Assembly: GCA_002748665.1 (NCBI GenBank)
Contig: PDTB01000017.1
Location: 47,011 to 111,010 of the forward strand
Length of the DNA stretch: 64,000 bases
Origin: Dethiosulfovibrio peptidovorans
GTDB lineage: Bacteria > Synergistota > Synergistia > Synergistales > Dethiosulfovibrionaceae
Reading direction: 5' to 3'
Below the pieces are notes generated by a model. That model made no database searches, was not told where the DNA came from, and saw only the letters and a program-made list of their open reading frames with translations. How positions within the stretch are numbered: position 1 is the stretch's first letter; every line of letters begins with the position of its first letter. The position numbers and the translations under genes are program-made. Shown one piece after another: positions 2,434 to 51,143 of the stretch.

Positions 2434-3453
2434 CTACAACCCCTTTTTGATCATGTGGTTGATCAGGTCGATGCAGCGGCAGGAATAACCCCACTCGTTG
2501 TCGTACCAGGCCAGAACCTTCACCATGTTGTCAACGACCATGGTGTGGCTCGGTGCGAAGATGGACGACCGGCTGTTGTGGACGAAGTCCATCGAGACGC
2601 AGTCGTCGGTCTCGTACCCGATGTACTTGGCCATGTCGCCCTCGGCATGGCGTCGGACGGCGTCGTTGATCTCCTGGGCTGAGACGGATTTTGGCAGTTC
2701 TACCACCAAGTCGACTACCGACACGTCCGGCGTGGGAACCCGAAGGGCCATCCCGTTGAGCCGGCCCTTGAGCTCGGGGATGACCAACCCTACGGCCTTG
2801 GCTGCTCCGGTGGAGGTCGGAACCATGGACAAAGCTGCTGCTCGGCCCCTGTGAAGTTTTTTGTGGGAGGAGTCCACCGTCTTCTGATCGCCGGTGTAGG
2901 CATGGATCGTGGTCATGACGCCTTTGACGATGGAGAACTCATCGTTGATGACCTTGGCGACGGGGGCCAGGCAGTTGGTCGTACATGAGGCGTTGGAGAC
3001 CACGTGATGGATCATCGGGTCGTAGGTGTTTTCGTTGACTCCCATGACGAAGGTACCCAGACCGTCGCCGCTCCCCGGAGCGGTGATGAGGACCTTCTTG
3101 GCCCCGGCATCCAGGTGAGCCTGGGCTTTAGCTGTATCTTTGTAGAGGCCCGAGGCCTCGATGACAATGTCCACACCAAGCTCACCCCAATTGAACTGAT
3201 CCGGTGAGGTGTGCCGCAAGGTTCGCACTCTCTTGCCGTCGATGATGATGGCGTTCTCGTCGCAGGATACGTCGCCCTGATAGCGGCGATGAACCGAGTC
3301 GTACTTGAAGAGATAGGCCCTCTGGTCCGAGGTGGATCGGCTGTTGGTGGCAACGATGTCGAAAAGTCCTTCATCGTCATACTCGTACAACCCCCTGAGG
3401 ACAAGCCTCCCTATGCGTCCAAATCCATTAATGGCTACTTTTGCCTGAGACAT
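2434..3453 (-). CDS. gap: Glyceraldehyde-3-phosphate dehydrogenase, type I
   Basis: Oxidises glyceraldehyde 3-phosphate with NAD(P)+ and phosphate. With the start at ATG 3453 (GGGAGAGG just upstream) the protein is 339 residues and opens with the Rossmann motif VAINGFGRIGR. The catalytic cysteine is C157 in SNASCTTN and the assisting histidine is H184 in TTIHAYTGDQ. A frame extending 20 codons further upstream has no matching homology and is rejected as the start. First gene of gap-pgk-tpiA. Only 38 bases separate it from a MITE-like element, and no convincing promoter is visible between them. Confidence 0.97.
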   Translation of the reverse strand: MSQAKVAINGFGRIGRLVLRGLYEYDDEGLFDIVATNSRSTSDQRAYLFKYDSVHRRYQGDVSCDENAIIIDGKRVRTLRHTSPDQFNWGELGVDIVIEASGLYKDTAKAQAHLDAGAKKVLITAPGSGDGLGTFVMGVNENTYDPMIHHVVSNASCTTNCLAPVAKVINDEFSIVKGVMTTIHAYTGDQKTVDSSHKKLHRGRAAALSMVPTSTGAAKAVGLVIPELKGRLNGMALRVPTPDVSVVDLVVELPKSVSAQEINDAVRRHAEGDMAKYIGYETDDCVSMDFVHNSRSSIFAPSHTMVVDNMVKVLAWYDNEWGYSCRCIDLINHMIKKGL

Positions 3454-3491
3454 GTAACACCTCTCCCTTCTGATAATTCGAAGCTTTTCTA

Positions 3492-3738
3492 GGGCACCTT
3501 TAAAGACCTGCATCCGAGTCTTCCAGCCTCAGGTCGTTTCGCCAGAGCCCTGTCTTGCCTCAACGTATTTTTTGACCTGCTTGCTCCATCTCGAATGGCA
3601 CCTCCTGTGCCCTCTCGGCTTGGGACGATGGCCACCTTGCCTCAGTCGATATTTCACGACGGCAGGTCAAAAACACGAACCTCGAATGGACTTCGTCGAA
3701 ACGGCCTGAGGCGAGTTTCTGAGTTTTTAGAGGATCCC
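3492..3738. mobile_element. MITE-like palindromic element, copy 1 (247 bp)
   Basis: Non-coding element flanked by a 4-bp direct repeat TCTA (3488-3491 and 3739-3742). The ends form an imperfect 15-bp inverted repeat, GGGCACCTTTAAAGA against GGGATCCTCTAAAAA (11/15). Nested internal arms also pair: 3527-3541 with 3697-3711 (14/15) and 3569-3580 with 3662-3673 (perfect). It is roughly 75-80% identical by eye to 49198-49459. There is no transposase. The size, inverted ends and target duplication fit a miniature inverted-repeat transposable element; the 4-bp duplication would suit an IS5-like transposase, but that is a guess. It lies exactly between whiA and gap. Confidence 0.85.
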
Positions 3739-3739
3739 T

Positions 3740-4627
3740 CTACAAATTATTATCGAACCCGTAGGATTCTGCTATAGCCTGAAGTTTTTTCCATCGATAG
3801 GTTACGGTGCTTTTGCTTACTGGCGTGTTCATAGCGGCTCCCAGCTCGCTGAGACTTGCGCTGGGAGCTGCCTTTCGGAGCTCTATAAGCTCCACAAGCT
3901 CGGGGGAAAGGGCATCTATTGGGCCATTCTCTCTCAAAAAATCGATAAGTTGTCCCTGTCTTTCAGCAGCAGCCACCGATTTTCTGATATTTGACGCATC
4001 GCAGTTGACCAGCCTGTTGGCCCGATCTCTCATAGAACGTACGATAGACTTCTCCTCCAACAACAGGGCCGACTCGGGCAGGCCCATCCCGACCATAAGA
4101 TCCACGATAGCACTTTGGTCCCGCAAAATGACTTCGACGGCATGAGCCACCGGTCGATAAGAGATGGGAAAGCCGTTTTTCTCCAGATGATCCTTCAGTC
4201 CCGCAAACACCGAACCAACGGGAGCTCGGAAGAGAAAATAGTACCCCCTTTTCGGAAAGTACAGAGCCCCCACTCCGCCGAATACTCCACGAATCCATGG
4301 CCAGCGAAGAAAACCACTATTGAGTTCCTTGGTCTGCATGGCCAAGGCGAGGCCTAGGGGAAGCTCCAGACGAACACTCCCCTTATGACGTTCAGGAACC
4401 CGAAGAATATCTCCGAGATCGAGGTCGCGGCTCCATCCGGTTTTACTCCAGAGGTGTCGGATTCGACGAAACGTCCAAAGTCGTCGAGACCATAGGATAA
4501 TCTTCTCAGAAACCTCTTTGTTTCGAAGACAGGACAGGATTCCCGAGAGCTCCGATTCGGCAGAGACTCGGTCTGAAACGGAATCGGAGACCCATTCATC
4601 CCAAATTCGGGCACTCAGGGACTCCAC
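3740..4627 (-). CDS. whiA: WhiA-family DNA-binding regulator
   Basis: WhiA joins a degenerate LAGLIDADG homing-endonuclease-like N-terminal fold to a C-terminal helix-turn-helix. In Gram-positives it influences division and sporulation genes. Visible here are WIRGVFGGVGALYF in the LAGLIDADG region, the family signature RANRLVNCDASNIRKSV near residue 220, and a C-terminal HTH region. I prefer the GTG start at 4627 (295 residues): it lies directly after the yvcK stop and has AGAGAGGAGG 12 bases upstream. An ATG at 4699 would overlap yvcK by 71 bases with a poor Shine-Dalgarno. The TAG stop lies inside the target duplication of the adjacent MITE-like element. rapZ-yvcK-whiA is a conserved trio. 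Confidence 0.9.
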   Translation of the reverse strand: MESLSARIWDEWVSDSVSDRVSAESELSGILSCLRNKEVSEKIILWSRRLWTFRRIRHLWSKTGWSRDLDLGDILRVPERHKGSVRLELPLGLALAMQTKELNSGFLRWPWIRGVFGGVGALYFPKRGYYFLFRAPVGSVFAGLKDHLEKNGFPISYRPVAHAVEVILRDQSAIVDLMVGMGLPESALLLEEKSIVRSMRDRANRLVNCDASNIRKSVAAAERQGQLIDFLRENGPIDALSPELVELIELRKAAPSASLSELGAAMNTPVSKSTVTYRWKKLQAIAESYGFDNNL

Positions 4628-23126: not shown

Positions 23127-23226
23127 TGGCGGAGACGTGTGGGAATCGAACCCACCGAGGACGGCCCTATGCCGCCCCCCGCACGGGTTTGAAGCCCGGG
23201 GCGCCCACCAGGACACATTCGTCTCC
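23127..23226 (-). tRNA. selC: Selenocysteine tRNA (anticodon UCA), CCA encoded
   Basis: 100 nt. Acceptor GGAGACG pairs with CGTCTCC, followed by GCCA, so the 3' CCA is encoded. The anticodon TCA reads opal stop codons (plus coordinates 23190-23192, in a CTTCAAA loop). The D stem is 6 bp (GTGTCC/GGGCGC with wobbles) and a long variable arm has a 7-bp stem (GGGCGGC/GCCGTCC). The T arm is GTGGG-TTCGATT-CCCAC. Extra-long variable arm, 6-bp D stem and UCA anticodon are diagnostic for tRNA-Sec. The expected eighth acceptor pair appears to be an A-A mismatch. Its presence implies that the organism makes selenoproteins. Confidence 0.95.
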
Positions 23227-49171: not shown

Positions 49172-49197
49172 TGCCCATGGGAAAAGATATCTTTTTA

Positions 49198-49459
49198 GGG
49201 TACCTCTAAAAAATAACATCCGAGTCTTCCAGTCTCTCATCCTCAGGTCGTTCCACCAGAGCCCTGTCTCGCCCAGACATAGTTTTGACCTGCCGGCTCC
49301 GTAGCGTCGCCTCGAAGAGCACATTCTATGCCCTCTCGGCTTGGGGCGACATCCGCCTCGCCCCAGTCGATACTTCACGACGGCAAGTCAAAAATACGAA
49401 CCTCGAATGGGTTCCGTCGAAATGACCTGAGGCAAGTTTCTCAGTTTTTAGAGGTTCCC
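49198..49459. mobile_element. MITE-like palindromic element, copy 2 (262 bp)
   Basis: Flanked by the direct repeat TTTA (49194-49197 and 49460-49463). Terminal inverted repeats of 15 bp match at 14 positions: GGGTACCTCTAAAAA (49198-49212) and the complement of 49445-49459. Internal arms CCTCAGGTC (49241-49249)/GACCTGAGG (49424-49432) and TTTTGACCTGCC (49283-49294)/GGCAAGTCAAAA (49382-49393) pair as in copy 1. No coding capacity. It occupies most of the 358-base gap between efp and pilQ. Better-preserved ends suggest it is younger than copy 1, or that its ends are under selection. Confidence 0.87.
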
Positions 49460-49460
49460 T

Positions 49461-51143
49461 TTACAGATCCCATTTCTCCACAGCCCCCTCCTTGATATCG
49501 AGAATATAGGGGATAACCACCATGACAACCTCGGAGCGGTTGTCTTTTTTTCTGGACGACCGGAACATCTCACCCAACAGGGGAAGATCGCCAAGCACGG
49601 GAATCTTAGTCGTAACCGTCGAATGGGTCTCGCTGAAAAGTCCCCCCACGACGAAAGGTTCGCCGTCTTTTACCCGAACCGAGGTATTTACGTTTCGTTC
49701 GCTGGTCTCAGGAACCTCAATGTCCCGACCACCGCTCCGCCAGCGAAGGATATCTCCTGTGGATATGGCCAGTTCTACGGATATAATGCCGTCCCGTCCC
49801 ACCACAGGAGTGAACTCCAGCTGAGGCCCTACCTCCTCGTCAGCGTATGTGGGGTTGCCTGCATCGTCTTTACCTGAGACGTATTTGTATTTTTTGACCA
49901 ATTTGATGGATGCCTTGGAGCCGCTCAGGGTCACCACCGACGGGTTAGCGAGAACCTTAGCCTTATTTTCAGTAACGAGAGCCTTAAGACCAGCATCCAG
50001 AAGTCGAATAGTTCCTATTCCGATATCAGGTACCTTCAGTTCTTGAGGAAAATTATATGCGTTCGGATCCTTAGTGTAAAAATACCCCCCTGCAGCGTCA
50101 TTAGGATCGGTACTCAACCACCAATGCTTGTATACAGCGTTCAGGAGAGCCTCCAGCTTATCCGATGCCTCGTCGTTAATCTCGACGATCCGGGCACGAA
50201 GCATCACCTGAAGTCCTGGATGATCCAGGGTTTGAAGAACACGCTCCACCTCCCGAAGCTGTCCCTCTGATGCTTTGACGAAGACTTGACGCAGACGCTC
50301 GTCCACGGTGATCTTGTCCTTCGCCACACCTGTAAGGGGGGCCAGAGTATCGGGGAGAGTCTTCATGTCGGCGTAGGCCACGTGGAAGCCCCTGGTCTTC
50401 ACCTCTCCTGTTGCCTTGGAGACTCCCTCGGGAGTGCCGATAATCAGCGTCCGCCCCAACTTGGCATATGTCAGGCCGTAGGAGCGCATGAGATAGCCGA
50501 AAACTTCCTTGAGAGGAGCGTTTTCAAATTTCATCGTCACCATCGAAGATTGAGCGACTGAGGGATCCAGAAGGATGTTCATGTTCATCATCTCACCGAC
50601 CATTCGGAAAACGTCCTGCAGGTCGGCATCCCGAAAGTCGATGGTGATCTTTTTTGTGGTTTGGAAGGGGTCAGAGGAATCCACAGCCGGAACTGTAACT
50701 GGCTTTTTGTATGGTCCGTCCTGAACGGGAGCTCGCCTTGCTCGAAGTTCAACGGTATACCGGTTCGACGGAGAAACTCCGACGATCTTCTTGACGACAA
50801 GCTCCTCCTCTGTCACGAGCCGAAGTCGAAGACCTCCCTTGACGTTCTCTATGGATATTTTCTTCAGGAGTGGCAGAGAGTACTCTCGGGACCACTCAGA
50901 CGACGGGATTAGCGTATCCCGAAAAAAGAAATCCAAAAAACCCGGGCCACTGGCTACAACTTCCGGCAGGGGCATGTCGGTACCTCGGATTGTCAGGGAC
51001 AAGCGATCGGCTCCCGCCTGTTGAGGCAGCAAACCTGAGATCGACGGGAGGTCCGTGGCCGGAAGCGGATCGGACGACCCCCAGGCCATAGACACGATTG
51101 ATACCAGGATAATAAGACTACAGATCATTGCTTTTTTCTTCAC
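49461..51143 (-). CDS. pilQ: Type IV pilus secretin PilQ-like
   Basis: 560 residues. A signal peptide (about 1-22) is followed by a beta-rich AMIN-like region, then a secretin/TonB short N-terminal domain (ITIDFRDADLQDVFRMVGEM, near 165-230), one N1/KH-like domain, and the C-terminal secretin barrel with RVKDGEPFVVGGLFSE and KIPVLGDLPLLGEMFRSS. It forms the outer-membrane pore for the pilus. GTG start with GAGGAGG 10 bases upstream. It ends the pilM-N-O-P-Q block, and its TAA stop lies in the MITE target duplication. Confidence 0.92.
   Translation of the reverse strand: MKKKAMICSLIILVSIVSMAWGSSDPLPATDLPSISGLLPQQAGADRLSLTIRGTDMPLPEVVASGPGFLDFFFRDTLIPSSEWSREYSLPLLKKISIENVKGGLRLRLVTEEELVVKKIVGVSPSNRYTVELRARRAPVQDGPYKKPVTVPAVDSSDPFQTTKKITIDFRDADLQDVFRMVGEMMNMNILLDPSVAQSSMVTMKFENAPLKEVFGYLMRSYGLTYAKLGRTLIIGTPEGVSKATGEVKTRGFHVAYADMKTLPDTLAPLTGVAKDKITVDERLRQVFVKASEGQLREVERVLQTLDHPGLQVMLRARIVEINDEASDKLEALLNAVYKHWWLSTDPNDAAGGYFYTKDPNAYNFPQELKVPDIGIGTIRLLDAGLKALVTENKAKVLANPSVVTLSGSKASIKLVKKYKYVSGKDDAGNPTYADEEVGPQLEFTPVVGRDGIISVELAISTGDILRWRSGGRDIEVPETSERNVNTSVRVKDGEPFVVGGLFSETHSTVTTKIPVLGDLPLLGEMFRSSRKKDNRSEVVMVVIPYILDIKEGAVEKWDL

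Follow-up and report, generated by a model that had tools for sequence, protein, structure and literature searches.

The window, by which we mean the whole stretch of 64,000 nucleotides of Dethiosulfovibrio peptidovorans DNA analysed here, carries two copies of a palindromic MITE. Copy A lies between gap and whiA and copy B between efp and a secretin-like gene, all four gene names having been assigned by reading the translations. The features at the two sites are the following:

3492..3738, plus strand: copy A of the palindromic MITE (247 bp), between gap and whiA, reading GGGCACCTTTAAAGAC...GTTTTTAGAGGATCCC
3488..3491, no strand: target duplication TCTA to the left of copy A, a 4-mer that is also duplicated around the IS in locus L112
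3739..3742, no strand: target duplication TCTA to the right of copy A, reading TAGA on the minus strand and containing the whiA stop codon TAG (3740-3742)
3492..3507, plus strand: left terminal inverted repeat of copy A, GGGCACCTTTAAAGAC, identical by eye to the IS end GGGCACCTCTAAAAAC at 14 of 16 bases
3723..3738, minus strand: right terminal inverted repeat of copy A, reading GGGATCCTCTAAAAAC on the minus strand
49198..49459, plus strand: MITE copy B, 262 bp, between efp and the secretin-like gene
49194..49197, no strand: target duplication TTTA to the left of copy B, read directly
49460..49463, no strand: target duplication TTTA to the right of copy B, containing TAA (49461-49463, minus strand), the codon at which the secretin-like gene stops

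Direct reading of copy A bore out the initial annotation, which had described a palindrome of 247 bp that has terminal inverted repeats and a TCTA duplication, and the nested internal inverted repeats noted there pair with each other in the predicted fold. The homology to 49198-49459, previously judged by eye at about 75-80%, came to 78-79% identity by BLAST, and a global alignment of the two copies with some flank gave 219 identities over 262 aligned positions, gaps excluded. Both copies are intergenic, and each has the stop codon of an adjacent gene within its duplicated 4 bp. As the definition of a MITE has it, they are short, are bounded by terminal inverted repeats and carry no transposase of their own, 247 and 262 bp being too short for one. 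An in-frame ATG inside copy A (window 3451-3513) would lengthen the gap reading frame by 20 codons. The sole Rfam match within the window was a selenocysteine tRNA gene at 23131-23226 (RF01852, 70 bits), and the search gave no match at the MITE.

Family range and signs of insertion

In its own genome (2.06 Mb, 48 contigs), the element matched at least 60 pieces at E<=0.001, corresponding to at least 40 places after merging by hand; the piece count is a lower bound, 40 of the 54 first-look candidates having been scored. The end pattern GGGNNCCTCTAAAAA, with at most one mismatch, occurred 72 times in this genome vs 9 times for its reversed control. The genome-wide family that the initial annotation had supposed from two copies is therefore present, and the finding that it had named as contrary to its reading, namely no further copies and no matching IS, did not arise, since many copies and an IS were found. 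Among 41 genomes searched, all seven Dethiosulfovibrio genomes and none of the 34 others contained the MITE. An order-wide search of 180 genomes, some of them incomplete, with a sister-species copy as query, gave 7 positive genomes, all Dethiosulfovibrio, and none among the other 173. The exact 20-base core pattern was found in 25 stretches of 84,980 species genomes, a collection that may omit records near the window, and all 25 were in one MAG, Dethiosulfovibrio sp. STD2_11; the same exact pattern had no match in viral contigs. The fetched loci together held 169 distinct copies and pieces of the MITE, and 70 of the 92 full-length copies with long flanks lie between genes according to rough ORF calls.

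The 4-bp duplication read at copy A proved to be a property of the family. It was exact in 31 of the 91 full-length copies from seven genomes whose two ends could be located, vs 0-3 copies when the right flank was read 1-8 bases further out as a control, and in 27 of 61 copies with both ends within two mismatches. None of the 91 copies had a 5-bp duplication and one had 8 bp, and the commonest duplications were TTTA (8), TTAA (6) and TAAA (3). An IS256-like mobiliser, at which the 8-bp duplication in L010 had hinted, was dropped since the wider set peaks at 4 bp. The lack of an exact 4-bp duplication in 60 of the 91 copies would be explicable by old, mutated copies, or equally by another process.

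The comparison with relatives that had been proposed as a check of precise insertion revealed empty sites. By eye, the copy A locus is empty in six of six relatives, in which whiA is closely followed by gap without the element, and the copy B locus is empty in all four relatives with an efp match, no element preceding efp (G003 and G005 gave no efp match and are outside this comparison). The presence of the element at the same locus in all relatives, which the initial annotation had counted against insertion, was thus not observed. Target duplication, dispersed copies and empty sites, which also belong to the definition of a MITE, were all found.

MITE copies frequently coincide with stop codons. 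Of 83 copies, 13 have a called stop wholly within their target 4-mer, vs 6.5% of available non-coding sites (p 0.003), with 8 further copies that have coding sequence on both sides excluded and orthologs not collapsed; in a looser test, in which some of the stops include the element's own first base, the count was 33 of 85 vs 4-10 of 85 at shifted positions.

A candidate mobiliser of the IS5 family

A search of the genus for the DUF772 domain pointed to eight places in G001 and one in G004. The elements bearing this domain are 1298-1300 bp long, have the ends GGGCAYCTCTAAAAAC and GGGNACCTCTAGNAA, and are flanked in 8 of 9 cases by an exact duplication of 4 bp, the G004 copy having TCTA like copy A of the window. 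The protein of the IS in L112 matches the IS5-family model NF033581 with 279.1 bits (cut-off 140) as well as DDE_Tnp_1 (PF01609) and DUF772 (PF05598), and full-length, stop-free frames of it stand at seven places in G001 and one in G004, which are two sister species. When searched against the 180 genomes of the order, this protein had matches in 29, including a 64%-identical IS in G125, from another family of the order, and weaker matches elsewhere. The ends of the G125 element (L214) are GGG, and TGGA flanks it on either side, as read by eye.

The MITE and the IS share their ends, L079 being identical to the IS of L112 at 16 of 16 bases and to the IS of L113 at 17 of 18, with identical runs of 11-12 bases between the window copies and the IS ends. 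Their interiors have only 10-14-base matches in common, which is chance level. Since only the ends are shared (16-18 bp at best), the MITE interior did not arise by deletion from the IS found. On the evidence of these ends, the autonomous partner of the MITE is likely a ~1.3-kb IS5-family element with the common end and 4-bp duplications. The initial annotation had placed the transposase elsewhere and suggested a search for an IS with the ends of the MITE; the former is now well supported by this candidate, and the latter yielded an IS5-family element that is intact in two sister species and represented by fragments in the own genome.

The 11 pieces of the own genome that match the IS protein include none of full length (11 of 28 candidates scored), and because only decayed IS pieces were seen there, the own-genome MITE copies are probably relics. 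The protein search gave no transposase match in G002, G003, G005 and G006, four of the seven MITE-bearing genomes of the genus, in which either the MITE outlived the IS or the IS is hidden by draft gaps. Grouped by similarity, without a tree, the relatives form a clade A (G001, G002, G006) and a clade B (G003, G004, G005). At position 6, T occurs in 35 of 64 MITE ends of clade A, 27 of 88 clade B ends and 4 of 30 ends in the own genome, and the corresponding IS position is T in G001 and C in G004; the MITE ends track the clades only partly.

Many copies of a palindrome, mostly intergenic (70/92), are also what characterises REP/BIME- or ERIC-type sequences, which would be moved by a Y1 (RAYT) transposase or without any transposase. 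However, 4-bp duplications and IS5-type ends are unexpected for Y1 (HUH) transposition, and we consider such an origin extremely improbable.

Some candidates in this part of the work were set aside. A full IS was suspected between opposed ends at G000:C20:61554-62476, where the ORF list contained no intact transposase and a 45-residue match was later seen. Of the lone end matches, examined individually, several resemble decayed IS or MITE copies that have been truncated, and others belong to a different short element. At G000:C27:25248-25500, a MITE copy directly adjoins an IS5-type transposase fragment.

A second short element of about 130 bp with the same ends as the MITE was noticed at L109:1473-1600 (G000:C20), where it has a TTGA duplication, at L093:926-1057, and perhaps in L106 and L108. 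When the L109 element was searched against the genus, the matches besides its own sequence were one of 70% in L108 (G000) and, in G003, an end match of 21 bases. This element may represent another type of MITE that depends on the same transposase.

Inverted interiors and compensated arms

Orthologous sites were defined strictly, by 60-bp flanks at >=70% on both sides, among the 113 copies with enough flank out of the 169 copies and pieces, which resulted in 14 loci and 22 pairs. The interior has the same orientation in 14 pairs and is opposite in 8 pairs at 6 of the 14 loci:

Opposite-core loci of the strict set: L236/L237, L074/L143, L071+L134/L084, L152/L196, L073/L122, L137+L185/L178

In the 8 opposite pairs, an inner inversion made in silico scores 259-334 vs 129-219 for the collinear alignment, and in all 14 same-orientation pairs the one-inversion model scores under the collinear one. 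These gains of 106-147 units are far beyond the effect of the two free breakpoints of the model. A further pair, L078/L175, looks clearly inverted and falls outside the strict 14, apparently through an indel in the 60-bp flank. The inversion breakpoints are mostly within inverted repeats: those of L236/L237, L074/L143 and L152/L196 are close to the terminal repeats, those of L071+L134/L084, L137+L185/L178 and L078/L175 fall in the first arm block, and those of L073/L122 border a decayed end.

Other apparent cases were not counted. Between-clade inverted pairs (for example L120 or L241 vs L175, and L073 vs L182) were removed as different insertion points in the same gap, a judgement made by eye from alignments that covered some of such pairs, and L200/L240 was dropped as unclear. 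L128 (G005) and L083 (G003), also outside the counted inversions, have the same site and core orientation with their outer ends exchanged, and for this pair two nested inversions score slightly higher than none (243 vs 230).

Opposite orientations might instead reflect independent insertions into one target, or faulty assembly. The family does prefer the targets TTTA, TTAA and TAAA, copies of the two clades are in some cases inserted at different points of one intergenic gap, and MITE copies are repeats that short-read assemblies may misplace. However, the genomes involved include the 1-contig G005 and the 3-contig G001, and the outer bases and terminal repeat variants stay collinear while the inside is inverted: in L084 the outer parts are collinear with the orthologs and the inside is turned, and in L236/L237 a terminal repeat variant keeps its flank. 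Furthermore, of the 9 flipped pairs (L078/L175 included), 4, at 3 loci, consist of reciprocally closest copies. The other 5 do not, which speaks for the alternative; among the same-orientation pairs tested, 7 of 12 do and 5 of 12 do not. Given the 5 flipped pairs whose partners are not reciprocally closest, some role of gene conversion among the copies may be expected. The flipped sites are not well explained by separate insertion or by random filling in the assemblies, and we regard this alternative as unlikely.

The arms of the palindrome were compared in 66 of 76 relative-type and 11 of 15 own-type full-length copies, taken by length and end quality; the 66 copies of the relatives have a mean identity of 87%. 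Over 37 arm pairs, all comparisons of these 66 copies, which are not mutually independent, gave 5758 compensated doubles vs 5327 singles, and 8-338 doubles when the partners were slid by 1-3 columns as a control. Such strong covariation could be taken as the mark of a dispersed structured RNA gene or cis-regulatory RNA kept through selection on pairing, and the central two hairpins, which are nearly invariant across the subfamilies, would be in line with this, as would the mismatch cells of the relatives, in which G-U is somewhat above A-C (55 vs 40). Against it, the own-genome cells are even (33 vs 33), and when mismatches at Watson-Crick-consensus pairs are counted as events, G-U equals A-C, with 24 vs 22 in relatives (p 0.88) and 23 vs 27 in the own copies (p 0.67). 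This near equality argues against a conserved RNA, as do the empty state of both window sites in relatives and the lack of a match in Rfam; with neither a tolerance of G-U over A-C nor a described family, a structured RNA was rejected as a candidate and appears very improbable.

Singletons are spread almost evenly along the element, with 20 in the 60 core columns 101-160 vs 90 in the other 190, a further point against selection on an RNA. All deviating cells together number 34 in core columns 101-160 vs 1428 elsewhere. Resident copies thus seem to decay nearly evenly, and spreading lineages to keep the core and the pairing. Between copies at the same site, arm differences are mostly single, with compensated doubles at two loci only (4 and 1), so that the case for arm repair in resident copies is not strong. 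The site of L128/L083 has four compensated arm differences. Causes at the DNA level, either a need for fold-back in spreading or template switching, fit better than RNA. That the arms change in a compensated manner and lack the G-U bias which an RNA should have is a caution against taking covariation as proof of RNA structure.

Proposed origin and relation to known systems

Our preferred explanation, to which we give a probability of roughly 0.87, is a non-autonomous MITE, confined to Dethiosulfovibrio among the genomes searched, that is inserted in trans by an IS5-family transposase and whose interiors invert in place. The DDE transposase would act on the common ends GGGNACCTCTAAAAAC and duplicate 4 bp of a mostly AT-rich target. 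The long palindromic arms would let the DNA of the element fold back, and the interiors of resident copies might then be turned by recombination between the arms or by template switching between them during replication. The ends, the duplications, the empty sites, the intact IS of sister species, the interiors inverted at matching sites and the compensated arm differences by which subfamilies are distinguished were all observed. We infer that the IS found here is the one that moved the MITE copies, and this molecular route of inversion and arm matching is likewise our interpretation. The in-place inversions and the compensated arms go beyond the initial annotation, whose data could not reveal them.

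The family might have evolved in two layers, with spreading lineages that keep an almost constant core of two hairpins and, by compensating changes in the arms, the palindrome, folded DNA being perhaps needed or repaired in spreading, and resident copies that decay almost evenly, favour neither RNA strand and keep inverting, perhaps by template switching. We hold this view tentatively, at somewhat less than even odds. If it is true, this family would serve as a naturally occurring record, in bacteria, of inversions driven by hairpins and of the repair of arms.

Like bacterial MITEs in general (review PMC10969869), the family has short copies, terminal inverted repeats, a target duplication, high copy number and no transposase of its own; it differs in its confinement to Dethiosulfovibrio among the genomes searched. 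The review gave no match to the word "Synergist", and our literature search, whose coverage lay largely outside subscription journals, found no title or abstract on a MITE of Dethiosulfovibrio or Synergistota. The Dethiosulfovibrio MITE is a new family of a known kind. It gives Synergistota a MITE with a candidate IS partner, documented by ends, duplications, empty sites and an intact IS in sister species.

With the IS5 family, the candidate mobiliser shares NF033581, DDE_Tnp_1, DUF772, a length of 1.3 kb and 4-bp duplications. The MITE itself differs in having no transposase, and its duplications are not limited to YTAR, the target duplication of IS5.

The Correia elements of Neisseria are MITEs said to undergo inversion, according to the same review (PMC10969869), which refers to Elbeyioglu et al. 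(2017), and the inversion of the Dethiosulfovibrio MITE has in them a precedent. Inversion in place is common to both, here at 6 of 14 strict loci and L078/L175 as read from assemblies. The host differs, as do the ends; moreover, inversion is here deduced between species, with breakpoints near the terminal repeats or in an arm block.

Template switching has been described to homogenise arms and invert spacers in yeast genes, with short repeats and spacers of 2-5 bp (PMC8604942), and has been proposed at inverted repeats for RNA genes (PMC8794818). Arm homogenisation and spacer inversion are what the MITE has in common with these systems, whereas here at least 150 bp turn and the repeats are part of a mobile element. 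The copies number well over 100 and the matched insertion sites no fewer than 14, so that in this family in-place inversion and the arm matching of palindromes become countable in bacteria over evolutionary time.
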